In this document: positions 12,330 to 28,713 of the stretch, one piece after another
Layout of the letters: every line of letters begins with the position of its first letter
Position numbering within the stretch: the stretch's first letter is position 1
Made by a program: the position numbers and the translations under genes
DNA from: Kribbella turkmenica
Lineage (GTDB): Bacteria; Actinomycetota; Actinomycetes; Propionibacteriales; Kribbellaceae
Reading direction: 5' to 3'
Assembly (NCBI RefSeq): GCF_004348725.1
Contig: NZ_SMKR01000033.1
Location: forward strand, 1 to 49,330
DNA: 49,330 nucleotides
Notes under the pieces: model-generated
Seen by the model: only the letters and a program-made list of their open reading frames with translations
Databases searched by the model: none
Told to the model about the DNA's origin: nothing

Positions 12330-12760
12330 GGGGCTGCCTCTCTTCTGCGTGGGTTGTAGCCGCCCTACGGTAACCGCCGCCGCAGCCGAGTGCCGCACGG
12401 CGCCAACGGGCAGAGGCCCCGGAGCGCATCCTCCGGAACCGGACCGCCGCTCGATCGGGCGCGTGCGGCAGATCACGCCCGGCGCGCGAACTTCCGGGGT
12501 ACCCGGGGCGTCGTACCGCTGAATTGGTCGTTCAAGGCCGTCAAATGTATATTCCAGATAACGATCGGCGAAGAAACGACTCATCGGTCGGTTGCACAGT
12601 CGGGCGCGACGTTTGGTAGCCGTCTGTACGTCGTTGCTCACTATGGAGGACCACTGTGTCGTCGGCCCTGATGCCGATCCGCTACTCTGCTTCTCGGTCT
12701 GCGTGGCCGCCGCCGTACCGGGCGGCGACACGACTTCTGGCAGAGAGAGGCGTCGCCTGA
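12330..12760. other. 431-bp divergent intergenic region between wecB and the exporter operon
   Basis: I see no gene here. The plus half (about 12520-12610) is clearly richer in A and T than the flanks, as expected of a promoter region for the long operon beginning at 12761. The leader of that operon would be about 200 nt. No riboswitch-like fold was recognised. Confidence 0.5.
12524..12553 (+). promoter_or_regulatory. Candidate promoter of the glycopolymer export/biosynthesis operon
   Basis: TTGGTC (12524-12529) and TATATT (12548-12553) are spaced by 18 bp and resemble -35 and -10 boxes for the primary sigma factor, in the only AT-rich part of the intergenic region. Transcription from here would leave a leader of about 200 nt before the ATG at 12761. 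Confidence 0.35.
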
Positions 12761-13627
12761 ATGAACGCGACTAGCGTCGACGAGGAGTTCAACCCGTCGG
12801 TGCACGTGTACGAACCGCACAAGGTCGGCCTGCCGCCGCTGCGTCCCTATTTCAAGGCGCTCTGGCAACGGCGGGAGTTCGCGGCCGAGATGTCCCGGAC
12901 CAACATCCGGGCGGCGAACACGAACACCTTCTTCGGCCAGGTGTGGCTGGTGCTGAACCCGCTGCTGCTGGCCGGCGTCTACTACGTGCTCGTCGACATC
13001 CTCAGCGGCGCGGGTTCGCGGGACGACGCGACCGCACGGTTCGTCCACCTCTGTGCGGGTCTGTTCGCGTTCTACTACTTCTCGGGCGCGATGACGACCG
13101 GGGCGTCGAGCGTGGTCGGCGGCGGCAAGCTGCTGATGAACATGTCGTTCCCGCGGATGCTGCTCCCGCTGTCGGCGCTGCGGACGGCGTTCTTCCGCTT
13201 CCTGCCGACGATGATCGTGTACGGCGTCATCCACCTGGTCACGCGGCAGCCGCTGAAGTGGGAGATGCTGCTGGCCCCGGTGTTCCTGCTCATGCTGACG
13301 GTCTTCGCCGCCGGGATGGGGATGATCTTCGCCGCGTTGCAGGTGTACTTCCGCGACACCACCAGCTTCCTGCCGTACTTCGTCCGGATCTGGCTGTACC
13401 TGTCGCCGGTGCTGTGGTTCGCCGAGGACGCGCCGGAGCGGTTCCAGAAGTTCATGATGTTCAACCCGCTCTACTCCCTGCTCGGCGGCTGGACCGACCT
13501 GCTCGTCCGCGGCACCATCCCGGAGGCGGGGTACTGGATCGGCGGGGTGGCCTGGGCGGCCGCCGCGGCCGTGATCGGTGGCTTGTTCTTCATGTCGAGG
13601 GAGCGTGAGTTCGTTGTCCGTCTCTGA
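12761..13627 (+). CDS. ABC-2 type polysaccharide exporter permease (Wzm/TagG type)
   Basis: This is the membrane subunit of an ABC exporter that moves a lipid-linked glycan across the membrane. The 288-residue protein has a soluble N-terminus of about 50 residues, including the amphipathic REFAAEMSRTNIRAANTNTFFGQVW segment typical of the ABC2 membrane family, then six predicted membrane helices: WLVLNPLLLAGVYYVL, a helix at AGLFAFYYFSGAM, two around FRFLPTMIVYGVI and LLAPVFLLMLTVFAAGMGM, then IWLYLSPVLWF and a final WAAAAAVIGGLFFM. Start ATG 12761 has GAGAGAGG upstream. It begins an operon with the ATPase gene next, so export is of the Wzm-Wzt (not Wzx-Wzy) kind. No polymerase gene is visible in the window. 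Confidence 0.92.
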   Translation: MNATSVDEEFNPSVHVYEPHKVGLPPLRPYFKALWQRREFAAEMSRTNIRAANTNTFFGQVWLVLNPLLLAGVYYVLVDILSGAGSRDDATARFVHLCAGLFAFYYFSGAMTTGASSVVGGGKLLMNMSFPRMLLPLSALRTAFFRFLPTMIVYGVIHLVTRQPLKWEMLLAPVFLLMLTVFAAGMGMIFAALQVYFRDTTSFLPYFVRIWLYLSPVLWFAEDAPERFQKFMMFNPLYSLLGGWTDLLVRGTIPEAGYWIGGVAWAAAAAVIGGLFFMSREREFVVRL

Positions 13628-14432
13628 GGCAGAGAAGAAGCCGATGCAGAAGACCCCAGCAGGCGTCCCCGCCGTCAAGGTCCAGGACGTGTCCATCACC
13701 TACCGGACCACGTTCGAGCGGGTGCCCACGTTCAAGAGCGCGATCGTCCGGTTCGGCCGCGGCGAGCGCGCCGTCCGCGAGGTCAAGGCCGTCCAGAATG
13801 TGTCCTTCGACGTCGACCACGGCACCACCATCGGCATCATCGGCGCGAACGGCGCCGGCAAGTCGACGCTGATGCGCTCGATCGCCGGCATCCTGCCGCC
13901 GACCTCGGGCCGGATCGAGGTGCACGGCCGGGTCTCCACCCTGCTGTCCCTCGGTGTCGGCTTCAACGCCGCGCTGTCCGGCCGGGAGAACGTCGTCCTC
14001 GGCGGTCTGGCCGCGGGCATGACCCGCAAGGAGATCCAGGCGCGGTACGAGGAGATCGCCGAGTTCGCCGAGCTCGGTGACTTCATGGAGATGCCGATGC
14101 GGACGTACTCGTCCGGCATGTTCAGCCGGCTGGCGTTCTCGGTCGCCGTGCACATGGACCCGGACATCCTGATGATCGACGAGGCGCTGTCCGCCGGTGA
14201 CGCCAAGTTCAAGACCAAGGCCGCGGCCAAGATGTCGGAGCTGGTCACCAACAGCCGGACGATGTTCCTGGTCAGCCACGCGATGAGCAGCGTCCGCGAC
14301 CTCTGCAACGACTGCATCTGGCTGCACAAGGGCAAGCTGATGATGCGCGGTCAGCCGGACGAGGTGATCGCGGCGTACACGAAGTTCCTGCAGGTCGGGG
14401 AAAAGGAATCCGTCTCACTCGAGGACCTCTGA
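13605..14432 (+). CDS. ABC exporter ATP-binding subunit (Wzt/TagH type, no C-terminal glycan-binding domain)
   Basis: This is the ATPase partner of the permease encoded immediately upstream. The 275-residue protein has the extended N-terminal TYRTTFERVPTFKSAIVRF region typical of polysaccharide/teichoic acid ABC ATPases, Walker A GANGAGKST, a GRVSTLLSLGVGFNAALSGREN Q-loop region, the signature YSSGMFSRLAFS, Walker B ILMIDEALSAGD and the H-loop FLVSHAM. It ends about 35 residues after the nucleotide-binding domain, so the carbohydrate-binding domain of E. coli O9a-type Wzt is absent. Start choice is uncertain: GTG 13605 overlaps the permease by 23 bp; ATG 13644, 16 bp after its stop, is the alternative. 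Confidence 0.92.
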   Translation: MSSLSVSEAEKKPMQKTPAGVPAVKVQDVSITYRTTFERVPTFKSAIVRFGRGERAVREVKAVQNVSFDVDHGTTIGIIGANGAGKSTLMRSIAGILPPTSGRIEVHGRVSTLLSLGVGFNAALSGRENVVLGGLAAGMTRKEIQARYEEIAEFAELGDFMEMPMRTYSSGMFSRLAFSVAVHMDPDILMIDEALSAGDAKFKTKAAAKMSELVTNSRTMFLVSHAMSSVRDLCNDCIWLHKGKLMMRGQPDEVIAAYTKFLQVGEKESVSLEDL

Positions 14433-14435
14433 CCG

Positions 14436-15530
14436 ATGTCACGCAGTACGGCGCCGGACGTGGGGATCATCACGACCGGTCACGACGTGGCCGATGCCCG
14501 CCTGCACAAGATCACCGCGGCGCTGCAGCACCGGGACCTCAGTGTCGAGCTGTGGGGCCTGGGCGAGGCCGAGGGCGGGCCGGCCGGGGCGTCCGTACAC
14601 GCCGGACCGCGCGGCAGCCTGGTCCAGCGGCTGGCCCGGACGGCGGTGCTGCCCTGGCGCACCAAGGCCAAGGTGGTGATGACGGTGGACCCGGACATGA
14701 TCCCGGTCACCCGTCTGGTCACCACGCTGCGCCGCCGCAAGATGGTCGCCGACGTCCACGAGGACTACGACCGGCTGCTCGCCGACCGCGCCTGGGCGCA
14801 GGGGCTGGCCGGGCTGCCGGCCCGGCTGATCGTCCGGGCCGGCTCGAAGCTGGCCGCCGGTGCCGACCTGACCGTCGTCGCCGACTCCCACCTCGCCCCG
14901 CACCAGGCGAAGCGCCGGCTGGTCGTGCAGAACTTCCCCTACGTCGCATTCCTCACCCCGGCGCCGCCGTCGGGGACGCCGCGGGCGGTGTACGTCGGGG
15001 ACCTTCGCGCCAGCCGGGGCCTGTTCGACATGGTCGAGACCGTGGCCGGGGCGCCGGACTGGTCGCTCGACCTGATCGGCCCGGTCGCACCGTCGGACCG
15101 GGACCAGCTCGAAGCCCGGATCGCGAAGCCCGACCTGGCCGGCCGGGTCCGGCTGCACGGGCGGCAGCCACCGGCAGACGCGTGGCGGCTGACCGAAGGC
15201 GCCTGGGCGGGCCTGGCCATGCTCCAGCCGACGCCGGCCTTCGTCGAGGCGATGCCGTCCAAGATCTACGAGTACCTCGCCAGCGGTCTTCCCGTCCTGT
15301 CCACCCGGCTTCCCCGGCAGACCAAGGTGATCGAGGAGTCCGGCGGCGGCGTCCTGGTGGATTCGGTGGCGGAGGCGGCCGAGACGCTGCGGCGCTGGTC
15401 CGCGGAGCCCGGTGAGCTGGAGAAGCTGCGCGACCACGCGCTGCAGTGGGCAGCGGACCATCTGTCCGCGACCACGCCGTACGACGAACTGGCCGACGCG
15501 ATTCTCAGCCTGCTGAGAGGCAGGGCATGA
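14436..15530 (+). CDS. GT4-family glycosyltransferase
   Basis: This 364-residue GT-B enzyme has an N-terminal acceptor domain starting VGIITTGHDVADARLHKI (about 8-25) and a VVADVHEDYD strand-loop typical of GT4 enzymes. The donor domain opens with AVYVGDLRASRGLFDMVE and contains SKIYEYLASGLPVLSTRLP (about 270-290), the E-x(7) nucleotide-sugar-binding element. It begins 3 bases after the ATPase stop and overlaps the next gene by 4 bases. Donor and acceptor cannot be told from the sequence. The position right after the exporter suggests an assembly enzyme of the exported polymer. Confidence 0.85.
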   Translation: MSRSTAPDVGIITTGHDVADARLHKITAALQHRDLSVELWGLGEAEGGPAGASVHAGPRGSLVQRLARTAVLPWRTKAKVVMTVDPDMIPVTRLVTTLRRRKMVADVHEDYDRLLADRAWAQGLAGLPARLIVRAGSKLAAGADLTVVADSHLAPHQAKRRLVVQNFPYVAFLTPAPPSGTPRAVYVGDLRASRGLFDMVETVAGAPDWSLDLIGPVAPSDRDQLEARIAKPDLAGRVRLHGRQPPADAWRLTEGAWAGLAMLQPTPAFVEAMPSKIYEYLASGLPVLSTRLPRQTKVIEESGGGVLVDSVAEAAETLRRWSAEPGELEKLRDHALQWAADHLSATTPYDELADAILSLLRGRA

Positions 15531-16852: not shown

Positions 16853-17406
16853 GCACGACCGTCGTGCTGCTGAGCACCCGCCGGCTTCCGCCGGCGTTCT
16901 TCGACACCGTCCGCGAGGACCTCGGTGACCCGGAGGTCACGCTGGCCGTGATCAGCTGGGTCGCCGCCCCTGCCGATCTGGACGCCGGCAAGGTCAGCAC
17001 CTTCACCATCATCGGGCCGCGGGGAGCCGGTGAGCCGGAAGCCGTCGCGCCGAGGCCCGAACCGACCGGAACGACGCCGCCGGCCGCGACTGTCGCCGGG
17101 CGGAACCGGGGCGCCCGGAAGGTTGCCGAAGGCATGTTGCCTAAGGCAATCAAAACCGGCCTGAAGTTCCTCCGGTCGCACCGCGCCGACAAGGAACTCG
17201 GAAAGGCCTTCTGGGACAGGGTTCTGAGCCACCGCGACGCGCTGAGCACGATCGGCACCGCCGATGTCGTGATCGCGCTCGACGCCGGTGCGATCTGGGC
17301 CGGCTGGAACCTCGGCCGCCGAAAGGCGAGCACTCCGGTGGTTCTCGGCATCCCGGCCGCCCGCCGCGAGTTGGACATGCTGAAGGTGCCGGCGGGCCAT
17401 GGGTGA
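16849..17406 (+). CDS. Unrecognised 185-residue protein in the glycosyltransferase operon
   Basis: It starts at GTG 16849 (overlapping the previous stop) and ends 8 bases inside the next gene, so it is translated as part of the operon. I recognise no family. There is an N-terminal strand TVVLLSTRRLPPAFFDTV, a flexible Pro/Ala/Gly-rich middle (about residues 58-85), a basic helix, and a C-terminal half with AFWDRVLSHRDAL followed by a hydrophobic strand ADVVIALDAGAIWAGWNLG. The last part resembles the late N-terminal strand of GT-B transferases, so it may be a reduced or partner domain lacking any donor-binding part. There is no signal peptide or membrane helix. Confidence 0.72.
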   Translation: MSTTVVLLSTRRLPPAFFDTVREDLGDPEVTLAVISWVAAPADLDAGKVSTFTIIGPRGAGEPEAVAPRPEPTGTTPPAATVAGRNRGARKVAEGMLPKAIKTGLKFLRSHRADKELGKAFWDRVLSHRDALSTIGTADVVIALDAGAIWAGWNLGRRKASTPVVLGIPAARRELDMLKVPAGHG

Positions 17407-18595
17407 TTCGATGACGGTGTCGCGTTCGCTCCGCGAGCATCTGCCGGCGCCATTCGCCCGGACCGCGGGAGCGGTCCGGCGGCGCCTGCGTGGTCTGCGG
17501 TACTCCTACGCGCAGCTGCCGGCGTTCCCGCCGGTGGCGCCGGCGCGGACGCGGCTGCTGGTCGGTCCGACCAACTCCGCCGGTCAGGGCCACGCCTGGG
17601 CCCAGGCCGCCACGACGCTGCCCGACGTCGACGCCGTCTCGTTCGTCCTGCACCGCAAGGGACAGTTCCGGTTCGCCACCGACTATGGCGTTCCGCTCGC
17701 CTGGTTCGCCCAGCCCCGGTGGCAGCGCGCCCAGGAGCAGTACGTCGCCTCGTACACCCACGTCCTGGTGGAGTCGTTGCGCCCGCTGCTCGGCGCCCGC
17801 GGCTACCCGGACGCGGCCGCGGACATCGCCGCGCTGCGAGCCGCCGGCGTCGACGTCGGCCTGCTGTTCCACGGCTCCGACATCCGCCTGCCGAGCCGGC
17901 ACGCGGCGCGCGAGCGCTGGTCGCCGTTCACACCGGGTGACGATCTGACCGAGCGGCTGGAGAAGCAGGCCCGTCGGCACGCCGAGCTGGTCGAGAGTCT
18001 CGGCCTGCCGGTCTTCGTGTCCACGGTCGACCTGCTGGACGACGTACCGGACGCGCAGTGGTTGCCGGTCGCGATCGATCCGGCGCCATGGCTGCGGGCA
18101 GCACGTCCGTTGTTCAGCACCGAGCGTCCGGTGGTCGTCCATGTGCCGTCGAACGCGCAGCTCAAGGGCACCGGCCGGATCGACGCCGTCCTGACGGACC
18201 TGCACGACCGCGGCGTCCTGGAGTACCGCCGGGTCACCGGCGTGCAGCACAGCGGCATGCCGGCCGTCGTCGGCGACGCTGACATCGTTGTAGACCAGCT
18301 GAGAATCGGTCTGTACGGCGTGGCGGCCGCCGAAGCGCTCGCCGCCGGGCGGATCGTCGTCTCGTACGTCGGTGACAGTGTGCGCCAGAAGGTGCGTACT
18401 CTGACTGGGCGAGAGGTGCCGATCGTGGAGGCGGATCCCGAGACGCTGGGTGATGTCGTCACCGGCCTGATCGCAGATCGTGACACCGCCGCCGACCGGG
18501 CGGCCGCCGGCCACGGGTACGTGGCGGAGCTGCACGACGGAAATCGCTCGGCCCGAGCACTCACCAGCTGGCTCAGTTCGAAGGAGACCCTGTGA
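17399..18595 (+). CDS. Glycosyltransferase of the GPxNxAGQ family (paralogue B)
   Basis: This 398-residue protein has the same motif series as the proteins at 5647-6945 and 24919-27537: LLVGPTNSAGQGHAWAQA (about 53-70), THVLVESLRPLLGA, FHGSDIRLPSRH (about 160-172), PVFVSTVDLLDDVPDAQW, VHVPSNAQLKGTGRID and VDQLRIGLYGVAAAEALAAG (about 300-320). A basic N-terminus precedes the first motif, as in paralogue A. The fold is probably GT-B with an unknown donor. It overlaps the upstream unrecognised gene by 8 bp and the downstream acetyltransferase by 4 bp. GTG/ATG alternatives exist a few codons in (ATG 17411). Confidence 0.8.
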   Translation: MGDSMTVSRSLREHLPAPFARTAGAVRRRLRGLRYSYAQLPAFPPVAPARTRLLVGPTNSAGQGHAWAQAATTLPDVDAVSFVLHRKGQFRFATDYGVPLAWFAQPRWQRAQEQYVASYTHVLVESLRPLLGARGYPDAAADIAALRAAGVDVGLLFHGSDIRLPSRHAARERWSPFTPGDDLTERLEKQARRHAELVESLGLPVFVSTVDLLDDVPDAQWLPVAIDPAPWLRAARPLFSTERPVVVHVPSNAQLKGTGRIDAVLTDLHDRGVLEYRRVTGVQHSGMPAVVGDADIVVDQLRIGLYGVAAAEALAAGRIVVSYVGDSVRQKVRTLTGREVPIVEADPETLGDVVTGLIADRDTAADRAAAGHGYVAELHDGNRSARALTSWLSSKETL

Positions 18596-19203
18596 CGTCC
18601 CGCATCGCGCCATCCGCCGACGTCGACGACCGCGCCACGATCGGCGACGGGTCGTCGGTCTGGCACCTGGCCCAGATCCGCGAGCACGCGGTCCTGGGCG
18701 AGAACTGCGTCGTCGGCCGCGGCGCCTACGTCGGGACCGGGGTCACGATGGGCGACAACTGCAAGATCCAGAACTACGCCCTGGTCTACGAGCCGGCGTC
18801 GCTCGAGGACGGTGTGTTCATCGGCCCGGCGGTGGTGCTGACCAACGACTACTTCCCGCGGGCGGTCACCCCGGACGGTACGCCGAAGAGCGGCCACGAC
18901 TGGGAGCCGGTCGGGGTCACCCTGAAGGAGGGCTGCTCGCTCGGCGCGCGCAGCGTCTGCGTGGCCCCGGTCACGGTCGGCCGCTGGGCGACCGTCGCCG
19001 CGGGTGCGGTGGTGACCAAGGACGTGCCAGACTTCGCGCTGGTCGCGGGGGTCCCGGCGCGGCGGATCAAGTGGGTCGGCCGGGCCGGAGTGCCGTTGCT
19101 GGAGGTCGGCAACGGCGAGTGGAAGTGCCCGAGCACGGGTGAGATGTACATCGAGATCGACGGGCGGCTGCGGCCGGCCGCTGAAGACATGGAGGAGAAC
19201 TGA
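18592..19203 (+). CDS. wbpD: UDP-2-acetamido-3-amino-2,3-dideoxy-glucuronate N-acetyltransferase (WbpD/WlbB type)
   Basis: This enzyme uses acetyl-CoA to acetylate the 3-amino group of UDP-GlcNAc(3NH2)A. The 203-residue protein is a left-handed beta-helix acyltransferase with hexapeptide repeats (ATIGDGSSV, AVLGENCVVGRGAYVG) and the WbpD-type hallmark GVFIGPAVVLTNDYFPRA (about 65-82). A final ATVAAGAVVTKDVPDFALVAGVPARRI turn is followed by a short C-terminal tail with Cys (NGEWKCPSTGEMY) also seen in WlbB-like enzymes. Start is GTG 18592. It precedes genes for the matching aminotransferase and dehydrogenase, which strongly supports this specificity over a generic sugar acetyltransferase. Confidence 0.92.
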   Translation: MTSRIAPSADVDDRATIGDGSSVWHLAQIREHAVLGENCVVGRGAYVGTGVTMGDNCKIQNYALVYEPASLEDGVFIGPAVVLTNDYFPRAVTPDGTPKSGHDWEPVGVTLKEGCSLGARSVCVAPVTVGRWATVAAGAVVTKDVPDFALVAGVPARRIKWVGRAGVPLLEVGNGEWKCPSTGEMYIEIDGRLRPAAEDMEEN

Positions 19204-20291
19204 TGGTGCAGCCGATTCCGGCCGCGAAGCCGATCATCGGGAAGGAGGAGCGCGAGGCCGTCGACCGGGTCATGCAGTCCGGGATGCTGGCCCAGGGCCC
19301 CGAGGTGGCGGCGTTCGAGCAGGAGTTCGGCGCAGCGCTGGTCGCCGGACGGAGTTGTGTGGCGACGAACTCGGGCACGTCGGGTCTCCACCTGGGGCTG
19401 CTGGCCGCGGGTGTCGGACCGGGTGACGAGGTCATCGTCCCGTCCTTCACCTTCGCCGCGACCGCGAACAGCGTCGCGCTGACCGGCGCCACCCCGGTGT
19501 TCGCCGACATCGAGCCGACGTACTTCTGCCTGGACCCGGCCGCGGTCGAGGCCGCCATCACCGAGAAGACCAAGGCCGTCATGCCGGTGCACCTGTTCGG
19601 TCACCCGGCGAACCTGACCGCGCTGCAGGCCATCGCCGACAAGCACGGCATCGAGATCTACGAGGACGCCGCGCAGGCGCACGGCGCCACCTGGAACGGT
19701 GCGCCGGTCGGCACCTTCGGCGAGTTCGCCATGTTCAGCCTGTACCCGACCAAGAACATGACGTCCGGTGAGGGCGGCATGAACTCGGTCGGGAACGCCG
19801 ACCTCGAGCGCCGGATGCGGCTGTTCCGCAACCAGGGCATGCTCAAGCAGTACGAGAACGAGGTCGTCGGCCTGAACAACCGGATGACCGACCTGCACGC
19901 GGCCATCGGCCGGGTGCAGCTGACCAAGCTGGCCGGCTGGACCAAGCAGCGGCAGGAGAACGCGGCCTTCCTGGACGCGAACCTGCAGGGTGTCGCGGTG
20001 CCGACCGTGGCCGCCGAGGCGACCCACGTCTACCACCAGTACACGATCCGCGTGACCGAGGACCGGGACGGCTTCGCCGACGCGCTGCGCACCGAGCACG
20101 GCGTCGGCTGCGGCGTGTACTACCCGATCCCGAACCACCGGCTGCCGTCGTTCCGGCGCGAGCTGGACCTGGCGGAGACCGAGAAGGCCGCGGCCGAGGT
20201 GCTCTCGCTGCCGGTCCACCCCTCGCTGTCCGAGGAGGACCTGAACCGGATCGTGTCCGCGGTGAACACCGTCGCGAAGGCTGGTGCGTGA
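19203..20291 (+). CDS. wbpE: UDP-2-acetamido-2-deoxy-3-oxo-glucuronate aminotransferase (WbpE/WlbC type)
   Basis: This PLP enzyme transfers an amino group from glutamate to the 3-keto sugar made by WbpB. The 362-residue protein belongs to the DegT/DnrJ/EryC1 family. Visible elements are SGTSGLHLGLLAAGVGPGDE (cofactor phosphate binding), VPSFTFAATANSV, EDAAQAHGATWNG with the Asp for the pyridine nitrogen, and FSLYPTKNMTSGEGGM, whose Lys (about residue 184) forms the Schiff base. The C-terminus contains YHQYTIRV and YYPIPNHRLPSF, typical of WbpE-like members. The start ATG overlaps the wbpD stop by one base, and the end overlaps wbpB by 8 bases. Confidence 0.94.
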   Translation: MVQPIPAAKPIIGKEEREAVDRVMQSGMLAQGPEVAAFEQEFGAALVAGRSCVATNSGTSGLHLGLLAAGVGPGDEVIVPSFTFAATANSVALTGATPVFADIEPTYFCLDPAAVEAAITEKTKAVMPVHLFGHPANLTALQAIADKHGIEIYEDAAQAHGATWNGAPVGTFGEFAMFSLYPTKNMTSGEGGMNSVGNADLERRMRLFRNQGMLKQYENEVVGLNNRMTDLHAAIGRVQLTKLAGWTKQRQENAAFLDANLQGVAVPTVAAEATHVYHQYTIRVTEDRDGFADALRTEHGVGCGVYYPIPNHRLPSFRRELDLAETEKAAAEVLSLPVHPSLSEEDLNRIVSAVNTVAKAGA

Positions 20292-21294
20292 GATGGCGAA
20301 CCTGAGAGCCGGCCTGATCGGCCTGGGCATGATGGGCCGCCACCACGCCCGTGTGCTGTCCTCCCTGGAGGGCGTCGACCTGGTCGCCGTCGCGGACCCG
20401 GGCGGTGACAAGTTCGGCGTGGCCGGCGGTCGCCCGGTGCACGAGAACATCGACCAGTTGATTGCCGAGGGCATCGACTACTGCATGGTCGCGGTGCCGA
20501 CGCAGTACCACGCCGAGACCGCGAAGGCACTGGCCGAGGCCGGCGTGCACGCGATGATCGAAAAGCCGCTGGCCGGGTCCACCGCCGAGGCGGCCGAGAT
20601 CGCCAAGGCGTTCGAGGCGGCCGGCGTGATCGGCGCGGTCGGCCACATCGAGCGGTACAACCCGGCGCTGCAGGCGCTGCGGGCGCGGCTGGAGAACGGC
20701 GAGCTGGGTGACATCTACCAGATGACCACCCGGCGCCAGGGCCCGTTCCCGGCCCGGATCGCCGACGTCGGCGTGACCCTCGACCTGGCCACCCACGACA
20801 TCGACCTGACCGCCTGGGTGACCCAGTCGCCGTTCGTCTCCGTGGCCGCGCAGACCGCGCACAAGTCCGGCCGCCAGTTCGAGGACCTGATCGCCGTGAC
20901 CGGCAAGCTGGCCGACGGCACCGTCACCAGCCACCTGGTCAACTGGCTGTCGCCGATGAAGGAGCGGCTCACCGTCGTCACCGGCGAGAGGGGCGCGTTC
21001 ATCGCGGACACGCTGCTGGCCGACCTGTCCTTCCACGCCAACGGCACGGTCGCCACCGCCTGGGACGACGTCGCGCACTTCCGCGGGGTCAGCGAGGGCG
21101 ACATGATCCGCTACGCGATCAGCAAGCCCGAGCCGCTGCGCACCGAGCACGAGGCGTTCCGGGACGCGGTCCTGGGCAAGGAAGCCGACATCGTCACGCT
21201 GCAGCAGGGCCTGGCCACCGTGCAGGTCGCCGAGGCCGCGCTGCAGTCGGCGGCCGAGGCCCGAACCGTGGCGATCACCATGGAGTCGCAGTAG
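20284..21294 (+). CDS. wbpB: UDP-N-acetyl-2-amino-2-deoxyglucuronate 3-dehydrogenase (WbpB/WlbA type)
   Basis: This Gfo/Idh/MocA oxidoreductase oxidises C3 of UDP-GlcNAcA to the 3-keto form. The 336-residue protein has the N-terminal Rossmann loop GLIGLGMMGRHHARVL (about 10-25), VAVPTQYHAE, and the family catalytic motif HAMIEKPLAGS with the Lys (about residue 97), then GVTLDLATHDIDLTAWV, whose Asp/His pair fits the sugar-oxidising site. The start is GTG 20284, overlapping wbpE; ATG 20293 is the alternative and neither has ideal ribosome binding site spacing. Because it sits between wbpE and wbpI-type genes I favour this substrate over inositol or other sugars used by the family. Confidence 0.9.
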   Translation: MREMANLRAGLIGLGMMGRHHARVLSSLEGVDLVAVADPGGDKFGVAGGRPVHENIDQLIAEGIDYCMVAVPTQYHAETAKALAEAGVHAMIEKPLAGSTAEAAEIAKAFEAAGVIGAVGHIERYNPALQALRARLENGELGDIYQMTTRRQGPFPARIADVGVTLDLATHDIDLTAWVTQSPFVSVAAQTAHKSGRQFEDLIAVTGKLADGTVTSHLVNWLSPMKERLTVVTGERGAFIADTLLADLSFHANGTVATAWDDVAHFRGVSEGDMIRYAISKPEPLRTEHEAFRDAVLGKEADIVTLQQGLATVQVAEAALQSAAEARTVAITMESQ

Positions 21295-21296
21295 TC

Positions 21297-22361
21297 ATGA
21301 AGGTCCTGAGCGTCGTCGGGGCCCGACCGCAGTTCGTCAAGCTGGCGCCGGTGGCGGAGGCGTTCGCCGCCACCGACCACGAGCACGTGATCGTGCACAC
21401 CGGCCAGCACTACGACAAGAACATGTCCGACGTGTTCTTCGCCGACCTGCGGATCCCGGACCCGGACGTCCACCTCGGTGTCGGGTCGGGCAGCCACGGC
21501 GTCCAGACCGGCGCGATGCTGTCCGCGCTGGACGCCGTACTGGACGAGCACCGGCCGGACTGGGTGCTCGTGTACGGCGACACCAACTCGACGCTCGCCG
21601 GGACGCTGTCGGCGGTGAAGATGCACCTGCCGGTGGCGCACCTGGAGGCCGGGCTGCGCTCGTTCAACCGGCGGATGCCGGAGGAGCACAACCGGGTCCT
21701 GACCGACCACGCGGCCGACATCCTGCTGGCCCCGACCCAGGTGGCCATGGACCACCTGGCCACCGAGGGCCTGTCGGCGCGGGCGCGGCTGATCGGCGAC
21801 GTGATGACCGACGTCTGCTTCCGGGTCCGCGACGCGGTCCGTGACAAGTCCCTGGGCAAGCCGCTGGACGTTCCCTTCAAGTCTGGCGAGTATGTCGTGT
21901 CGACCATCCACCGGGCCGAGAACACCGACGACCCGGAGCGGCTGGCCGCGCTCGTCGAGGGTCTCGCCGCGGCCGGTACGCCGGTGCTGCTGCTGGCGCA
22001 CCCCCGGCTCGTCGCCAAGTGCGCGGAGCACGGCATCAAGCTGGAGCGCCCCGACGGCTCGCTGCATGTGCACGAGCCGCTGGCGTATCCGGAGATGGTC
22101 GCGGCCGTGCTCGGCTCGGCCGGTGTGGTCACCGACTCCGGTGGCCTGCAGAAGGAGGCCTTTCTTCTCGGCCGGGTCTGCACCACGCTGCGCACCGAGA
22201 CCGAGTGGGTCGAGACGCTCGAGGACGGCTGGAACGTCCTCACGTCCGACGTGAGCAAACTGCCCGAGCTGGCCGCCCGCCCGGCGCCGGCATCCGACCG
22301 CCCCATGCCCTACGGTGACGGTCACGCCGCCGGGCGTGTCGTCACCGCTCTCACGGAGTAG
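21297..22361 (+). CDS. wbpI: UDP-2,3-diacetamido-2,3-dideoxy-glucuronate 2-epimerase (WbpI type)
   Basis: This non-hydrolysing epimerase is predicted to convert UDP-GlcNAc(3NAc)A to UDP-ManNAc(3NAc)A, the last step of the pathway. The 354-residue protein starts MKVLSVVGARPQFVKLAP and has VHTGQHYDKNMSDVF, YGDTNSTLAGTLSA, HLEAGLRSFNRRMPEEHNR, STIHRAENTDD and TDSGGLQKEAFLLGRVC, followed by LRTETEWVETLEDGWN. The Q-K-E-A and T-E-W-x-E-T signatures are those of WbpI/WlbD enzymes; WecB-type enzymes have QEEA and TERPE, as in the gene at 11187. It starts 2 bases after wbpB. Four other pathway genes are in the same operon. Confidence 0.92.
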   Translation: MKVLSVVGARPQFVKLAPVAEAFAATDHEHVIVHTGQHYDKNMSDVFFADLRIPDPDVHLGVGSGSHGVQTGAMLSALDAVLDEHRPDWVLVYGDTNSTLAGTLSAVKMHLPVAHLEAGLRSFNRRMPEEHNRVLTDHAADILLAPTQVAMDHLATEGLSARARLIGDVMTDVCFRVRDAVRDKSLGKPLDVPFKSGEYVVSTIHRAENTDDPERLAALVEGLAAAGTPVLLLAHPRLVAKCAEHGIKLERPDGSLHVHEPLAYPEMVAAVLGSAGVVTDSGGLQKEAFLLGRVCTTLRTETEWVETLEDGWNVLTSDVSKLPELAARPAPASDRPMPYGDGHAAGRVVTALTE

Positions 22362-22365
22362 CCAC

Positions 22366-23595
22366 GTGCCCAAAGCCGCCGAAGAACAGAACCAGTCGCC
22401 CGCCCCGGGCTCTCCGGGGCCGGCGGCTTCGGTCCTGACGTCCACCGACACGGCCACACCGCCTCCGGGCGCGCCGGTCAGTGGCTTCCCGGGTGAGTCC
22501 GGGCCGCCGCCGGCCGAGCCCCGCAAGCGACTGCCGCGGGTGGAGTCGCTCACCGGCCTGCGCTGGTGGGCGGCGTTCTTCGTTTTCGCGCACCACATGA
22601 CCAACCTGGCGCCGCTGCCGATCCACGACTTCCTGAAGTACGGCACGTCCGGGGTGACGTTCTTCTTCGTACTGTCCGGATTCGTGCTGACCTGGTCGGC
22701 CCAGCCGGGCACGAGGTTCCGGACCTTCTACCGCCGCCGGTTCGCCCGGATCTGGCCGGCCCACATGATCGCGCTGATCGCGGCGGTCTTCGTGTTCTAC
22801 CGCTTCGATCCGCCCGAGAACATGTGGTGGATCAAGCCGGTCTCGGTCACCGTCATCGTCTTGTCGGTGTTCCTGCTGCACGGCTGGTCGAACGACCCGA
22901 CCGTCCTGTACGGCGGCAACCCGGCGTCCTGGACGCTGTCCGTGGAGGCGTTCTTCTACGCGTACTTCCCGTTCGTCTGGCGGGCCACGAAACGGCTCAA
23001 GCTGGCCGGCGGCCTGATCCTGTGTGCCGCGGTGATCGTGGTCGGTGGGGCCTACCGGCTGGCGTTGTTCCACTACAAGGACGTCGTCCCGGTGCTGCCG
23101 CAGCCGATCCTGCACTCGGTGGCGTTCCTGTTCGGCATCGGTCTGGCGATCGCGCTGCGGACCGGCTGGAAGCCGCGGATCCCGGTCTGGTTCGCCTTCC
23201 TGGTCACCGCCGGCGGCCTGTTCACGCTGTGGTACTCCGGCGAGCACCCGGCCCAGGTCCCGTTCGCGATCACCATGAGCCTGACCCAGAAGGAAGTCCT
23301 CACGCTGCTGTACGGCTTCCTCATCCTGGCCGTCGCCTCCCGGGACACCCAGGGCGGGCGGTCGCTGCTGCGCAGCCGTCCGCTGGTCGCCCTCGGCCAG
23401 TGGTCGTACGCCTTCTACCTGGTGCACGCCACCATCCTGTACGCGATCAAGGAGTACCACGGTGTGGCCGGGCCGACCGGCTGGGCCAACCTGATTTGGT
23501 ACGCCGGGATCTGCGCCCTCTCGATTCTCGTCTCCTGGCTGCTGTACAAGTTCGTCGAGCACCCGCTGGAACGGAAGCTGCGAGGGCCCCGATGA
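22366..23595 (+). CDS. Acyltransferase 3 family membrane protein
   Basis: This 409-residue integral membrane enzyme probably acetylates (or otherwise acylates) the polymer. A disordered Pro/Ala-rich cytoplasmic N-terminus of about 60 residues precedes SLTGLRWWAAFFVFAHHM, the family's first helix with the catalytic His. Then come TSGVTFFFVLSGFVLTW, FYRRRFARIWPAHMI (the conserved R-x-x-R-I-x-P element) and SWTLSVEAFFYAYFP. About ten membrane helices are visible in all, ending FVEHPLERKLRGPR. Start is GTG 22366 with GGAG 7 bases upstream. It lies between wbpI and wbpA, so its acceptor is presumably the wall polymer or a lipid-linked precursor. Confidence 0.9.
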   Translation: MPKAAEEQNQSPAPGSPGPAASVLTSTDTATPPPGAPVSGFPGESGPPPAEPRKRLPRVESLTGLRWWAAFFVFAHHMTNLAPLPIHDFLKYGTSGVTFFFVLSGFVLTWSAQPGTRFRTFYRRRFARIWPAHMIALIAAVFVFYRFDPPENMWWIKPVSVTVIVLSVFLLHGWSNDPTVLYGGNPASWTLSVEAFFYAYFPFVWRATKRLKLAGGLILCAAVIVVGGAYRLALFHYKDVVPVLPQPILHSVAFLFGIGLAIALRTGWKPRIPVWFAFLVTAGGLFTLWYSGEHPAQVPFAITMSLTQKEVLTLLYGFLILAVASRDTQGGRSLLRSRPLVALGQWSYAFYLVHATILYAIKEYHGVAGPTGWANLIWYAGICALSILVSWLLYKFVEHPLERKLRGPR

Positions 23596-23620
23596 AGAAT
23601 CACTACCTAGGGGAGTTCCC

Positions 23621-24922
23621 GTGCGTGTCAGTGTTGTTGCCTTAGGCAAGATCGGGCTGCCGTTGGCGGTCCAGTTCGCGGCCAAGGGTCATCAGGTCGT
23701 CGGCGTCGACATCAACCCGGCGACGGTCGAGCAGGTGAACGCCGGGCAGGAGCCGTTCCCGGGCGAGGCACACCTGGCCGAGCTGCTCGCCGAGACCGTG
23801 GCCGCCGGCCGGCTGCGGGCGACCACGGACTACGCGGACGCCATCCCCGGCAGTGACGCGGTGGTGCTGGTCGTGCCGCTGTTCGTCGACGAGCGGACCG
23901 GTGAGCCGGAGTTCGGCTGGATGGAGAGCGCGACCCGCTCGCTGGCCGAGCACCTCACCCCGGGCACCCTGGTCAGCTACGAGACCACCCTGCCGGTCGG
24001 CACCACCCGCACCCGGTGGAAGCCGCTGCTGGAGGAGGTCTCGGGCCTGAAGGAGGGGGCGGACTTCCACCTGGTGTTCTCGCCGGAGCGGGTGCTCACC
24101 GGACGCGTGTTCGCGGACCTGCGCAAGTACCCGAAGCTCGTCGGCGGCCTGTCCGAGGAGGGCGCCAAGCGCGCCACCGCGTTCTACGAGGCCGTGCTGG
24201 ACTTCGACGAGCGCCCGGACCTGGAGCGCGGCAACGGCGTCTGGGACCTGGGGTCGGCCGAGGCGGCCGAGCTGGCGAAGCTGGCCGAGACGACCTACCG
24301 CGACGTGAACATCGGCCTGGCGAACCAGTTCGCCCGGTTCGCCGGTGAGCACGGGATCGACGTGCACCAGGTGATCGAGGCGTCGAACTCGCAGCCCTAC
24401 AGTCACATCCACCGGCCCGGGATCGCGGTCGGCGGCCACTGCATCCCGGTCTACCCGCGGCTCTACCTGTGGACCGACCCGGACGCCACCGTCGTCCGGG
24501 CCGCCCGCGAGGCGAACCTCGGCATGCCCGACTACACCATCGGCCTGCTCGAGGGCGCGTACGGCGACCTGACCGGGGCCGAGGTGGTCGTGCTCGGCGC
24601 GGCGTACCGCGGTGGCGTCAAGGAGACCGCGCTCTCCGGCGTCTTCCCGGCCGTGGAAGCGTTGAAGTCCCGTGGTGCGGAGGTGTCCGTGCACGACCCG
24701 CTGTACACCGACGAGGAGCTCCGTCGGCTCGGCTTCACGCCGTACGCGCTGGGCGCGCCGGTGGACGCCGCCGTGCTGCAGGCGGACCACCCGGAATACG
24801 CGCAGTTGACCCCGGCCGACCTGCCAGGGGTGCAGGTGCTCGTCGACGGCCGTGACCGCACCGACCCGGCTCGCTGGGTGGGCGTACGCCGGATCGTGAT
24901 CGGAAGGCCGGTTCGAGGGTGA
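23621..24922 (+). CDS. wbpA: UDP-N-acetyl-D-glucosamine 6-dehydrogenase (WbpA type)
   Basis: This enzyme oxidises UDP-GlcNAc to UDP-GlcNAcA, the entry step of the pathway. The 433-residue protein starts at GTG with GGGGAG upstream and opens MRVSVVALGKIGLPLAVQFA, with K in place of the usual Y in the G-x-I-G-L-P loop. Other features are YETTLPVGTTRTRW, VFSPERVLTGRVF, AETTYRDVNIGLANQFARF, the catalytic-Cys motif GIAVGGHCIPVYP with Cys at 274, and a C-terminal domain with LGAAYRGGVKETALSG. The GGHCIPVYP form is typical of the WbpA/TviB/VpsB group rather than WecC. The start lies 25 bp after the acyltransferase; the stop overlaps the next GTG. Confidence 0.87.
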   Translation: MRVSVVALGKIGLPLAVQFAAKGHQVVGVDINPATVEQVNAGQEPFPGEAHLAELLAETVAAGRLRATTDYADAIPGSDAVVLVVPLFVDERTGEPEFGWMESATRSLAEHLTPGTLVSYETTLPVGTTRTRWKPLLEEVSGLKEGADFHLVFSPERVLTGRVFADLRKYPKLVGGLSEEGAKRATAFYEAVLDFDERPDLERGNGVWDLGSAEAAELAKLAETTYRDVNIGLANQFARFAGEHGIDVHQVIEASNSQPYSHIHRPGIAVGGHCIPVYPRLYLWTDPDATVVRAAREANLGMPDYTIGLLEGAYGDLTGAEVVVLGAAYRGGVKETALSGVFPAVEALKSRGAEVSVHDPLYTDEELRRLGFTPYALGAPVDAAVLQADHPEYAQLTPADLPGVQVLVDGRDRTDPARWVGVRRIVIGRPVRG

Positions 24923-27537
24923 CAGCTGCCGACCTGCGGGTCGTGATGATGGTCGCGAACGACGTCACCAACGACAGCCGGGTCCGCAAGGAGGCGGCCG
25001 CACTGGCCGAGACCGGGGCAGAGGTGACTGTGCTCGGGGTCTCGGCCGGCGATCTGCCGTCGAGGGAGGTTCTCGACGGCGCGCTGATCGTCCGGGTGGC
25101 GGTTCCGTTCAGCCTCCGGGAGGAACGGAAGCGGAGCCGGGCGGCCCGCCGGGCCTGGCGCCCGCCCCTGGTGGGGTACAGGAACACGTCGACCTACACC
25201 GCCCGCAGCCGGCGGATCGAGGCCGAGCTGAGGGCACTGAAGGCCGACTCCGGGCACGCCGTCGCGGCGGCGAAGGAGGGGAAGCGCAACCCGCTCGGGT
25301 TCAAGCTCGGAGTGGCCACCCGGCTGCTGCGCCGGGGGCGCTGGCAGGCGGCCCAGAAGGCCGCCTGGGTCCGCCAGGGGGTCGGCCGGAAGGCCGACGG
25401 AACGTTCAAGTTCGGCTGGCGTGCCTACGACGGCGTGATCCACCGGATGCCGTGGCCGGCGCCGTGGCGCCGACTGCACCCGGAAGCACTCGACCTCGAG
25501 ATGGCCTTCGGTGACCTGATCGACCGGCTCGAGCCCGACGTGGTGCACGCGCACGACATGCACGTCATCGGTGTCGCCACCCGTGCCGCCGGCCGGGCGA
25601 AGCTGCGCGGCAAGCACCTGAAGGTCGTCTACGACGCGCACGAGTACGTCGCCGGCCTGTCCCGGTACGGCGGCCGGACCCGCCGGTCGATCGCGGCCTG
25701 GGCGAACCACGAGCGCGAGTACATCGGCCAGGCCGACCTGGTGATCACCGTCAGCCCGGCGATCGCGCACCGCCTGCGGCAGGAGCACAAGCTCGGCCAC
25801 GAGCCCGCGGTGATCATGAACACGCCGAACCCGGCGGACGTGTCGGTCGAGGTGACCGACGTCCGCAGCCGGATCGGGCTGCCTCCGGAGGTCCCCCTGC
25901 TGGTCTACAGCGGCGGCGTCACCCGGGCCCGTGGGGTGGAGTCCGCCGTCCAGGCGCTGGTGGAACTGCCGGACGCGCACCTGGCCGTCGTCTGCGTGCC
26001 GGGGATCGCGACGGACGCCGTCCGGGCGCTGCAGGCGCTGGCCGCGACACTCGGCGTGGAGAACCGGCTGCACTGCCTCGATCCGGTGAAGCCGGACGAG
26101 GTGGTCGCGTTCCTGCGGACGGCGGACGTCGGGCTGATCCCGATCCTGCGCTACCCGAGCCACGAGATGGCGCTGCCGAACAAGCTCTTCGAGTACGCCT
26201 TCGCCGGGCTGCCGGTGGTGGTCAGCGACATGCCGAGCATGAAGGAGTTCGTCGACCGGACCCGGATCGGCGAGGTGTTCGTCGCGGCCGACCCGCACGA
26301 CCTGGCGTCGAAGGTGCGCACGGTCCTCGGCGACCTGGACAGCTACCGCGAGCGCGTGGCGCACCCTGGGTACCAGCAGGAGGTCTCCTGGGCCGGGCAG
26401 GCCGACAAGCTGCGCAGCCTGTACGGCGAGCTGGTCGGCCGGCGGCTGACGGTCTCCGAGCCCGCTGACCGGGTGGCGAAGAAGCAGCCTCACCTGCTGA
26501 TCGGCCCGGTCAACAGCGCCGGCCAGGCGTGGTTGTGGTCCACCGCGCTGGAGCGTGCGGAGCCGGGGCTGGTCGCGGAGTCGCTTACGACGGGCAGCGG
26601 CGCGTTCGGCTTCCAAGCGCACCGGACGGGCACGTACCGGCAGTACCGCTCGGACCTGCGCTGGCAGTTGGAGCTCACCGCGTACACATTGCGCACAGTG
26701 ACCCACGTGCTGTTCGAGGCGGGCCGCCCGATGTTCGGGCAGGAGCGCGGCGCCCTGTGGACGACCGACGTACCCGTGCTCGACTCGGCCGGGATCAAGC
26801 ACGGCGTGATCTTCCACGGCTCGGACATCCGCGATCCCGCGCGGCACCGGGCGAAGTACCGGTACTCGCCGTTCAGGGACCGCGACGAGGAGCTGACGCA
26901 GCGCCTGCAGTCCGCCAACGACGTCATGCGCCGCCACCTCGCGGACTACGAGGGCCCGGTGTTCGTCACCACGCCGGACCTGCTGGAGTTCGTCGAGAAC
27001 GCCGTCTGGCTCCCGCTGACTGTCGACGGTGAGGAGTTCAGCTCGGCCGAGCCGGTGCTCGAGCGGAAGGTTCCGGTGGTGCTGCACGCACCGTCGGCCA
27101 GTGCGCTGAAGGGGTCGGCGTACGTCGACCCGGTGCTCACCGACCTGGACGCGCGCGGCCTGATCACGTACCAGCGGGTCGAGGACGTGCCGCACACCGA
27201 GCTGGCGGAGATGGTCCGGAACGCCGACGTCGTGGTCGACCAGCTGCTGCTCGGCTCGTACGGCGTGCTCGCGTGCGAGGCGATGGCGGCTGGACGGCTC
27301 ACCGTCGGGCACGTCGCGGACTCGGTCCGCGAGCTGCTGCCGACCGACCTGCCGATCGCGGAGGCGACCCCGGACGACCTGGCCGAGGTGATCGAGCGGC
27401 TGGTCGCCGAACGCGACCCGGCCCGCAAGCTCGCCGACGCGGGGCCGACGTACGTCCGGGAGCTGCACGACGGCCGGAAGTCCGTCGAGGTCCTGCTGCC
27501 GTTCGTGAACGGCGAACCCGAGAACGGCGAGGTTTGA
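24919..27537 (+). CDS. Two-domain glycosyltransferase: GT4 fused to a GPxNxAGQ module (paralogue C)
   Basis: This 872-residue fusion starts at GTG 24919. Residues of about 1-515 are a GT4 enzyme: VVMMVANDVTNDSRVRKEA (N-terminal loop), DVVHAHDMHVIGVA, VVYDAHEYVAGLS, LLVYSGGVTRARGVES and LPNKLFEYAFAGLPVVVSD (about 415-433). Residues of about 518-872 repeat the motif series of paralogues A and B: LLIGPVNSAGQAWLWSTA, THVLFEAGRPMFG, FHGSDIRDPARH, PVFVTTPDLLEFVENAVW, LHAPSASALKGSAYVD and VDQLLLGSYGVLACEAMAAG. Two transfers by one polypeptide is the simple reading. It overlaps wbpA by 4 bp and the next gene follows without a gap. Confidence 0.87.
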   Translation: MTAADLRVVMMVANDVTNDSRVRKEAAALAETGAEVTVLGVSAGDLPSREVLDGALIVRVAVPFSLREERKRSRAARRAWRPPLVGYRNTSTYTARSRRIEAELRALKADSGHAVAAAKEGKRNPLGFKLGVATRLLRRGRWQAAQKAAWVRQGVGRKADGTFKFGWRAYDGVIHRMPWPAPWRRLHPEALDLEMAFGDLIDRLEPDVVHAHDMHVIGVATRAAGRAKLRGKHLKVVYDAHEYVAGLSRYGGRTRRSIAAWANHEREYIGQADLVITVSPAIAHRLRQEHKLGHEPAVIMNTPNPADVSVEVTDVRSRIGLPPEVPLLVYSGGVTRARGVESAVQALVELPDAHLAVVCVPGIATDAVRALQALAATLGVENRLHCLDPVKPDEVVAFLRTADVGLIPILRYPSHEMALPNKLFEYAFAGLPVVVSDMPSMKEFVDRTRIGEVFVAADPHDLASKVRTVLGDLDSYRERVAHPGYQQEVSWAGQADKLRSLYGELVGRRLTVSEPADRVAKKQPHLLIGPVNSAGQAWLWSTALERAEPGLVAESLTTGSGAFGFQAHRTGTYRQYRSDLRWQLELTAYTLRTVTHVLFEAGRPMFGQERGALWTTDVPVLDSAGIKHGVIFHGSDIRDPARHRAKYRYSPFRDRDEELTQRLQSANDVMRRHLADYEGPVFVTTPDLLEFVENAVWLPLTVDGEEFSSAEPVLERKVPVVLHAPSASALKGSAYVDPVLTDLDARGLITYQRVEDVPHTELAEMVRNADVVVDQLLLGSYGVLACEAMAAGRLTVGHVADSVRELLPTDLPIAEATPDDLAEVIERLVAERDPARKLADAGPTYVRELHDGRKSVEVLLPFVNGEPENGEV

Positions 27538-28713
27538 GTGCGGATTCTGATGATCGCGCAGTCCCCGATCGCCGGAGACTCGCGGATCCTCCGGGAGGCG
27601 ACGGCGCTGGCCGCGGCCGGTCACGAGGTGCACGTGATCGGCCGGGATGTGCCCGATGCCTGGCTGGAGAACCAGCACAGCGAGGTCGGACCGGGAGTGA
27701 CGGTCGAGTCGGTCTCCCGGTCGGCCGGACTCCGGGGCAGCAACGGCGGACCCGCGGTCGGGCACGGCCGGAACGGGCCGAAGGTGCTGGTCCAGCGGTT
27801 CGGCCGGTGGCTGCTGCTGCCGGAGCACCGGAACCGGACCGAGAAGCAGTGGCGGATCGCGGCGGCGCCGCGGGTGGCGGCTGCCGGCCCGTTCGACGTC
27901 GTGCACGCGCACGACTTCAACACGCTCGAGCTGGCTGCCTCCTTCGCCGGGCAGTGGTCGGCGGAGCTGGTCTACGACACCCATGAGCTGTGGTTCGACC
28001 GGGCGCTTCCCGGCCGCCCGACGCCGTTGTGGCGGGCGCGCGGCCGGCGGTTCGAGGCTGCCTTGGCCGGCAAGGCGCGGCTCGTCATCACGGTGTCCGA
28101 CGGGATCGCGCAACGGTTGCGGGAACGCGGGCTGGCTGACGTGCGCGTCGTCCGGAACACGTTCCCCCGGGCCGACGAGGTGCCTGCGGCGCTCGACCGG
28201 CCGGAGGGACTGCTGTACGCCGGTCGCGTCGGCGCGGGGCGTGATCTGCCGACCGTGGTGGCCGCGGCCCGGCGGTTGGCGCCGTTCCGGACGGTGCTGA
28301 TGGGGTCGGTGGATCCCAACTACCGCTTGGATCTGGGCCCGGTGGAGAAGGTGGCGGAGCGCTCGATCGACGAGGTCGACGACACGCTGCGGTCCTACGG
28401 CATCTCGCTGGTCACGCTCACCAACACCTGCGAGAACCACCGGCTGGCCCTGCCGAACAAGCTCTTCCACGCTGTCCGGGCCGGCGTACCGGTGGTCGCC
28501 GCCGATCTTCCGGAGATGCGTGCGGTCGTCACGCAGTACAAGCTCGGAACCCTTTACACACCAGGAGATCCGGCGTCGTTGACCGCGGCCGTGCGTGACG
28601 TGATCGACAACTACGGCACCTACGCCGACGGTGCCCGCTCCGCCGCGGCCGAACTCAACTGGGAGAAGGACTCCGCCACCCTCGTCACCGCCTACGCCGA
28701 ACTCACCCGCTGA
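27538..28713 (+). CDS. GT4-family glycosyltransferase
   Basis: This 391-residue enzyme starts at GTG directly after the previous stop. The N-terminus MRILMIAQSPIAGDSRILRE resembles that of the GT4 half of the preceding fusion (VANDVTNDSRVRKE), so the two are likely related. Further motifs are DVVHAHDFNTLEL, LVYDTHELWFDR, LVITVSDGIAQRL, GLLYAGRVGAGRDLPTVV and LPNKLFHAVRAGVPVVAADLPEM (about 300-320; the usual Glu of the F-E-Y element is a His here). It is the last gene of the operon, which is closed by two strong palindromes. Confidence 0.87.
   Translation: MRILMIAQSPIAGDSRILREATALAAAGHEVHVIGRDVPDAWLENQHSEVGPGVTVESVSRSAGLRGSNGGPAVGHGRNGPKVLVQRFGRWLLLPEHRNRTEKQWRIAAAPRVAAAGPFDVVHAHDFNTLELAASFAGQWSAELVYDTHELWFDRALPGRPTPLWRARGRRFEAALAGKARLVITVSDGIAQRLRERGLADVRVVRNTFPRADEVPAALDRPEGLLYAGRVGAGRDLPTVVAAARRLAPFRTVLMGSVDPNYRLDLGPVEKVAERSIDEVDDTLRSYGISLVTLTNTCENHRLALPNKLFHAVRAGVPVVAADLPEMRAVVTQYKLGTLYTPGDPASLTAAVRDVIDNYGTYADGARSAAAELNWEKDSATLVTAYAELTR

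Follow-up and report, generated by a model that had tools for sequence, protein, structure and literature searches.

Which sugar does a gene cluster of the actinobacterium Kribbella turkmenica make, and are its enzymes those of the pathway known from Pseudomonas? The stretch of DNA analysed here (contig NZ_SMKR01000033.1, positions 1 to 49,330; hereafter the window) measures 49,330 bases at 70% guanine-cytosine (GC) content and is part of a 7.45 Mb assembly. A first-pass annotation, made from the letters alone, had read five of its open reading frames (ORFs) as homologues of the Wbp enzymes that lead from uridine diphosphate (UDP)-N-acetylglucosamine (UDP-GlcNAc) to UDP-2,3-diacetamido-2,3-dideoxymannuronic acid (UDP-ManNAc3NAcA). 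We name them by the Wbp enzyme whose role each would take: D (18592..19203), E (19203..20291), B (20284..21294), I (21297..22361) and A (23621..24922). All five lie where the annotation had put them, belong to the families expected, and are intact + strand frames with a coding-like GC content at third codon positions of 0.94-0.97. Very probably, the operon makes UDP-ManNAc3NAcA for a glycopolymer exported by an ATP-binding cassette (ABC) transporter of type 2, using an enzyme set of the Utr type described in Streptomyces griseus.

Starting from UDP-GlcNAc, we infer five activities. These are oxidation at C6 by A, a predicted UDP-sugar 6-dehydrogenase of a variant subfamily; oxidation at C3 by B, a putative GnnA-like, nicotinamide adenine dinucleotide-dependent C3 dehydrogenase of the Gfo/Idh/MocA family; and transamination at C3 by E, a predicted pyridoxal phosphate-dependent sugar 3-aminotransferase in the WbpE role (DegT/DnrJ/EryC1/StrS family; PF01041, 405 bits). 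D, a hexapeptide-family acyltransferase, would then act as UDP-sugar 3-amine N-acetyltransferase in the WbpD, WlbB or UtrJ role, and I, an Epimerase_2 protein in the predicted WbpI or UtrH role, would epimerise UDP-2,3-diacetamido-2,3-dideoxyglucuronic acid (UDP-GlcNAc3NAcA) at C2 to yield UDP-ManNAc3NAcA. The clustered glycosyltransferases (starting at 14436, 15446, 24919 and 27538) would put ManNAc3NAcA into a glycopolymer, which an enzyme of family PF01757 (22315) may acylate and an ABC-2 exporter (12761-14432) would carry out of the cell. Most likely this polymer belongs to the wall and resembles teichuronic acid, like the one described for S. griseus. The enzyme set would be the actinobacterial Utr-type version of the pathway, distinguished by separate lineages for the C3 oxidoreductase, the aminotransferase and the 6-dehydrogenase.

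The evidence for the product comes first from D and I. The top solved relative of D is 3mqg, which we take to be WlbB of Bordetella, at 153.8 bits against 86.3 for the runner-up, and this places D among WbpD/WlbB-type acetyltransferases. Epimerase I scores 335.8 bits to 8sxv, the solved UDP-GlcNAc3NAcA 2-epimerase of Thermus thermophilus, against 115.6 to Escherichia coli WecB, and is 53% identical to the former over the fragment compared. In the study of the Thermus enzyme, three changes fit a bulkier substrate (Trp307 for Arg, Tyr96 for His or Gln and Ala18 for Leu or Met), and a Lys that lies at most 3.2 Å from the substrate carboxylate also bonds the C4 hydroxyl (PMC10622841). The window epimerase keeps Lys15, Tyr93, Asp95 and Trp304, and thus two of the three published determinants (Trp and Tyr); the TETEW motif pointed out in the first-pass annotation is present and includes Trp304. 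The Lys-Leu-Tyr-Asp-Trp combination occurs in 36 of 93 aligned epimerase rows, 35 of which are actinobacterial close relatives of I, including those of Streptomyces and Cutibacterium. I is thus predicted to be a 2-epimerase of the UDP-GlcNAc3NAcA type. That I is nearest to 8sxv with two of three determinants, and D nearest to 3mqg, gives good support to UDP-ManNAc3NAcA as the predicted product. A side observation concerns the acetyltransferase family, among the L-numbered loci, which are the best 80 of a genome scan, absence from that list being uninformative. In L060, L067, L076, L078, L080 and L090, which span several phyla, one ORF of 517-578 amino acids naturally joins a Gfo/Idh oxidoreductase to a WbpD-like acetyltransferase.

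The genomes of relatives show that the enzymes travel together. A, B, D and I were each searched in one set of 58 related genomes, 37 of them from the genus; E was outside this search. Since the genomes share ancestry, co-occurrence is given without a P-value. Of the 58, 41 have A, and exactly these have B at an identity of at least 58%; D occurs in them and in one other (G046), while I at 67% or more (close I) was found in 37, all within the 41. Weaker matches to B (33-34%) occur in five genomes of the genus, two of which have no A, and weaker matches to I (43-47%) in further genomes. Counting close matches only, the 37 genomes of the genus divide into 27 that have A, B, D and I together and ten that have none of the four. 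Two congeners, G003 and G008, encode all five proteins in the same order, at 83-94% identity to those of the window, so the set is more than a chance assembly. Among the loci listed, the closest named one is that of Kribbella catacumbae (L033): its A and B each fall in a four-row clade with the window and two congeners, and its E pairs with that of the window. The co-occurrence of A, B, D and I, together with the nearest solved relatives of D and I, bears out the end product predicted in the first-pass annotation.

Across the phylum the module is less common. In a sample of 149 genomes, the window genome included, A passes its threshold in five and B in eight, the five among them; A and B are therefore a minority feature of this sample. 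The three genomes with B and no passing A, from other classes of Actinomycetota, were considered as cases of B without A. This was rejected for two (G178 and G097), in which a weaker A of the Tyr type described below adjoins B; in the third (G180), no more than an A-like fragment was found, where a contig ends. A second candidate, A and I as a pair making UDP-N-acetylmannosaminuronic acid (UDP-ManNAcA), arose from relatives' stretches that held no B, D or E. It was rejected, as the genomes concerned encode B and D at other places and A accompanies B and D where close I is absent.

The first-pass annotation had called B a homologue of WbpB, and here it did not hold. Among solved proteins B is closest to GnnA of Acidithiobacillus ferrooxidans (7bvj, 81.7 bits), followed at a distance by 3q2k, WlbA of Bordetella (57.5 bits). 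Solved WbpB proteins gave no match for 3oa2 (at 1e-4) and 22 bits for 3o9z, against 82 for GnnA, whereas a Luteimonas locus protein finds the two at 422 and 342 bits. Among NCBIfam models, B scores best with NF040723, UDP-GlcNAc 3-dehydrogenase, at 205.8 bits, under the cut-off of 450. In a tree of 56 rows, from which ORFs under 55 bits, one L058 fragment and Bordetella WlbA (3q2k) were left out, B falls in a 22-row actinobacterial clade (100/100) adjoining one Anaerolineae and one euryarchaeal row. The nine WbpB-type rows stand apart, separated by a branch 4.46 changes per column long. GnnA is not directly joined to the window B, its placement being unsure (long branch, open fork).

B and GnnA also share a C-terminal motif, R..PF..R..D..V..DL..HD.D, written after inspecting these two proteins and thus descriptive. 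It is present in 21 of the 22 clade rows, in GnnA, in the Anaerolineae locus L079 and in seven of eight further actinobacterial B proteins. None of the nine WbpB-type rows (seven from loci, two solved) has it; L068, L084, L092, L097 and L110 do not match it either, with near forms in some. A fold search with the predicted structure of B (predicted local distance difference test 91.5) ranked GnnA third, with WlbA appearing no earlier than rank 36 and WbpB absent from the 50 rows listed; such searches confirm superfamilies and the GnnA ranking only. By these sequence comparisons, B falls outside the WbpB group; its likeness is to GnnA, a UDP-GlcNAc 3-dehydrogenase of the same Gfo/Idh/MocA family, at about 25% identity. 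The GnnA pathway serves lipid A. In one further locus (L044), the sole Gfo/Idh match is not a B of the window type.

The 6-dehydrogenase A and the aminotransferase E also belong to lineages of their own. Taken for a WbpA homologue in the first-pass annotation, A instead groups apart from the 6-dehydrogenases that the WbpB-bearing Gram-negative loci L077, L082 and L089 encode. In this tree, built without L090, such loci served as proxies for PAO1 WbpA. The active-site set of A is Lys220, Thr224, Cys274 and Tyr278. While the Cys and Lys of the UDP-glucose dehydrogenase superfamily are kept in all 52 aligned rows (ORFs of 390 amino acids or fewer, such as those of L063 and L066, left out), each of the 27 actinobacterial clade rows has Thr and Tyr, and all 24 comparison rows have Asn and Asp. 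The latter include other actinobacterial dehydrogenases, among them the second one of the window. The Tyr form of A was found in nine further genomes. A haloarchaeal 6-dehydrogenase with Gly and Tyr at these positions is encoded by Halolamina pelagica (L092, 6771-8162), in a locus that also has B, D, E and I matches; its join to the actinobacterial A clade carries a long-branch warning.

For E, WbpE (3nyu) scores 218 bits, below 7b0d (276) and 2oga (258). Its tree, which left out six near-duplicate loci, matches under 280 residues and the solved WbpE, puts it in a 17-row actinobacterial clade, outside a 24-row clade (100/100) that unites the enzymes of Gram-negative loci with 2oga and 7b0d. 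Support is weak (82/77) for the fork joining the actinobacterial clade to rows from Chloroflexota and archaea. E is related to WbpE, as had been noted, at the level of a large family, and its tree sets it apart from the enzymes of Gram-negative loci. Overall, homology to the Wbp enzymes stands for D and I and, for A, B and E, reaches only the level of large families.

How does this set compare with known systems? The first-pass annotation regarded the pathway as best known from Gram-negatives, which understates the actinobacterial record. In S. griseus, wall teichoic acid is reported to carry a teichuronic-acid-like polymer of N-acetylgalactosamine and ManNAc3NAcA, and structural modelling assigned utrA, B, D, H and J to a Pseudomonas-like pathway (PMC13274773). 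The Utr locus shares with the window a predicted UDP-sugar dehydrogenase, a pair of aminotransferase and oxidase, an N-acetyltransferase, a 2-epimerase and an acetyltransferase; the window adds an ABC exporter, a WecB-type epimerase and a UDP-N-acetylmannosamine (UDP-ManNAc) dehydrogenase. Published Utr loci themselves vary (PMC13274773). The scanned ORFs of the window gave no Pfam match to a UDP-glucose 4-epimerase, a teichoic acid polymerase or linked wall teichoic acid genes. Its A, B and E each fall in clades (100/100) with sequences of S. halstedii and other Streptomyces. The trees contain S. halstedii and two further Streptomyces species (two of the three in the E tree), and S. griseus was not in the set. 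The polysaccharide of Cutibacterium acnes contains two ManNAc3NAcA residues, the same sugar as predicted for the window, and the available passages of the report assign no biosynthesis genes to it (PMC6598116). Cutibacterium porci and two close relatives encode close A and I, in an operon spread over a longer stretch than that of the window.

The Wbp pathway of Pseudomonas aeruginosa has the same five predicted activities, and D and I are related to its enzymes. By contrast, B lies outside the WbpB group, A belongs to another clade with a changed active site, and E lies outside the clade with the enzymes of Gram-negative loci. In these comparisons the Pseudomonas enzymes were represented by 3oa2, presumably a Pseudomonas protein, by WbpE matches and by loci of Dyella, Luteimonas and Acidovorax. 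Since the S. griseus polymer and Utr set and the C. acnes sugar are in print, the window holds a further member of a published kind. We call it a variant because the separate lineages of actinobacterial A, B and E and the Asp-to-Tyr change were not found in the searches made of an open-access library. That the enzymes differ from those of Pseudomonas decides how such loci get annotated and studied, and the tight A-B-D-I module could serve as a genome marker for predicting ManNAc3NAcA in actinobacteria. The Tyr-type 6-dehydrogenase would directly show to what extent its large enzyme class can replace the catalytic Asp. A Streptomyces umbrella toxin lectin has a ManNAc3NAcA polymer as a receptor (PMC13274773).

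In which order would the enzymes act? B, E and D could make UDP-2,3-diacetamido-2,3-dideoxyglucose (UDP-GlcNAc3NAc) from UDP-GlcNAc, after which A would oxidise C6 and I would epimerise, an order to which we give close to an even chance. B resembles GnnA and has UDP-GlcNAc 3-dehydrogenase as its best NCBIfam model, albeit far under the cut-off, and the shared motif is unmatched by the five loci listed above; the altered active site of A allows a C3-first order, but L068 and L084, with a related B, have Asp-type dehydrogenases. L079, whose B adjoins the actinobacterial clade, has D, E and I beside B in a stretch without a 6-dehydrogenase match; it is a single short contig, and the dehydrogenase may lie elsewhere in the genome. 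The L079 epimerase has Gln in place of the Lys that lies near the C6 carboxylate in Thermus, although that Lys, as cited above, has a second partner in the C4 hydroxyl. Sequence, moreover, cannot give substrate order.

Alternatively, C6 oxidation would precede the C3 steps as in Pseudomonas, carried out by diverged or replaced enzymes; this is a serious possibility, at rather less than even probability. D is WlbB-like, and we assume the substrate of WlbB to be the acid. Bordetella WlbA, solved with UDP-N-acetylglucosaminuronic acid, shares the fold of B, if only at rank 36, and the identity of B to GnnA is low; the motif common to B and GnnA, post hoc as it is, is nevertheless missing from every WbpB-type row, and the 24 comparison dehydrogenases all differ from A at two positions of the active site. 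The Utr pathway of S. griseus was proposed to be similar to that of Pseudomonas (PMC13274773).

More tentatively still, Actinobacteria may have assembled the route separately, with a GnnA-like C3 set acting first and a Tyr/Thr 6-dehydrogenase then acting on the 2,3-diacetamido sugar through a new catalytic arrangement. Among Chloroflexota, L079, L097 and L110 have a related B with E and I (D in L079 and L110 only) and no 6-dehydrogenase match in the stretch. Their epimerases have Gln at the Lys17 position of the Thermus enzyme and a changed Tyr96 position, and that of L097 also lacks the Trp. These loci, all on short contigs, possibly encode a C3-only route, perhaps to neutral UDP-2,3-diacetamido-mannose.

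Several observations weigh against UDP-ManNAc3NAcA as the product and its export in a polymer. First, four of the 58 genomes, all outside the genus (G039, G043, G048 and G049), combine A, B and D with no close I; two of the four have a 43% relative. UDP-GlcNAc3NAcA may therefore be the end product elsewhere. Second, the third specificity residue, Ala18 in Thermus, is Leu16 in the window epimerase and Leu in all 35 actinobacterial close-I rows, while Ala is found in 39 of the 93 rows, Thermus included. Leu seems to be tolerated, as the Leu rows include Streptomyces and Cutibacterium, genera with a chemically known polymer. Third, the NCBIfam model TIGR00236 (WecB) scores 246.3 bits on the window epimerase and so passes its cut-off of 210.15. 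Fourth, A lacks the Asp and Asn of its enzyme class (human Asp280 and Asn224, the numbering transferred through the Cys and Lys motifs to an alignment without a human row). In human UDP-glucose dehydrogenase, Asp280 activates water, Asp280Asn is detrimental and Cys276 turns to Asn224 (PMC3184952). Fifth, both exporter subunits score far under the cut-offs of exporter models, and the literature searches made on Kribbella wall polymers found nothing usable.

It is very unlikely that I is an ordinary UDP-GlcNAc 2-epimerase and that the operon makes UDP-GlcNAc3NAcA and, separately, UDP-ManNAc or its acid, since the passed WecB cut-off and a Leu of the kind described for UDP-GlcNAc epimerases (PMC10622841) are set against a WecB-type epimerase already present in the window (411 bits to E. 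coli WecB), the Trp304 and Tyr93 of the diacetamido type, and close I never occurring in the 58 genomes without A, B and D. The first-pass annotation had itself named a place among WecB enzymes as a result that would refute its reading; the ranking of I against solved structures (8sxv well ahead of WecB), Trp304 and the separate WecB-type epimerase speak against this identification, the passed cut-off notwithstanding. We thus retain I as a probable UDP-GlcNAc3NAcA 2-epimerase.

The genes around the pathway fit synthesis and export of a polymer in part. The first-pass annotation had described a Wzm/Wzt-type exporter with glycosyltransferases; the families are present, with exporter models below their cut-offs. 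The candidate Wzm-like permease of ABC-2 type (12761..13627, + strand) matches PF01061 at 35.9 bits and, as best NCBIfam model, galactan Wzm at 45.8 bits (cut-off 380). It is followed by a Wzt/TagH-like ABC ATPase (13578..14432, +; PF00005), for which models of teichoic acid and galactan exporter ATPases are best, below cut-off. Next come two predicted glycosyltransferases (14436..15530, +, PF00534; 15446..16852, +, PF13439). Downstream of A lie an 872-amino-acid glycosyltransferase (24919..27537, +), which has a second, weaker glycosyltransferase-like stretch close to its C-terminus, and the final gene of the cluster, another glycosyltransferase (27538..28713, +; PF13439), adjoining a peptidase gene on the opposite strand. 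Between I and A, and absent from the first-pass annotation, lies the PF01757 acyltransferase gene (22315..23595, +), a candidate for O-acylation of the polymer. Its start is uncertain (22315, 22336 or 22366), and it is kept in congeners.

The window also encodes a second pair of nucleotide-sugar enzymes, likewise missing from the first-pass annotation of the operon. These are a UDP-ManNAc dehydrogenase of the WecC/Cap5O type (7097..8344, +), with 557.9 bits to NF008286 (cut-off 459) and 345.9 to Cap5O, and a WecB-type UDP-GlcNAc 2-epimerase (11187..12731, -; PF02350), whose match to E. coli WecB (1vgv) starts at residue 136, the true start lying inside the ORF. By sequence matches both enzymes of the WecB/WecC route are present, which implies that UDP-ManNAcA may be made too. 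At an E-value of 1e-100 the dehydrogenase was found in eight of the 58 genomes and, within the genus, in only two of 37 (G000 and G036). It is therefore a variable add-on, fitting the locus variability described for Streptomyces.

Two further ORFs of the window may encode glycosyltransferases. The protein of 17399..18595 (+), upstream of D, has no Pfam or NCBIfam match and is 41-43% identical to part of the congeners' homologue of the 24919 protein; by this partial identity it is likely an unmodelled type of glycosyltransferase. A 961-amino-acid ORF (8283-11168, +) contains two glycosyltransferase-like regions and overlaps its neighbour, and its start is probably later.

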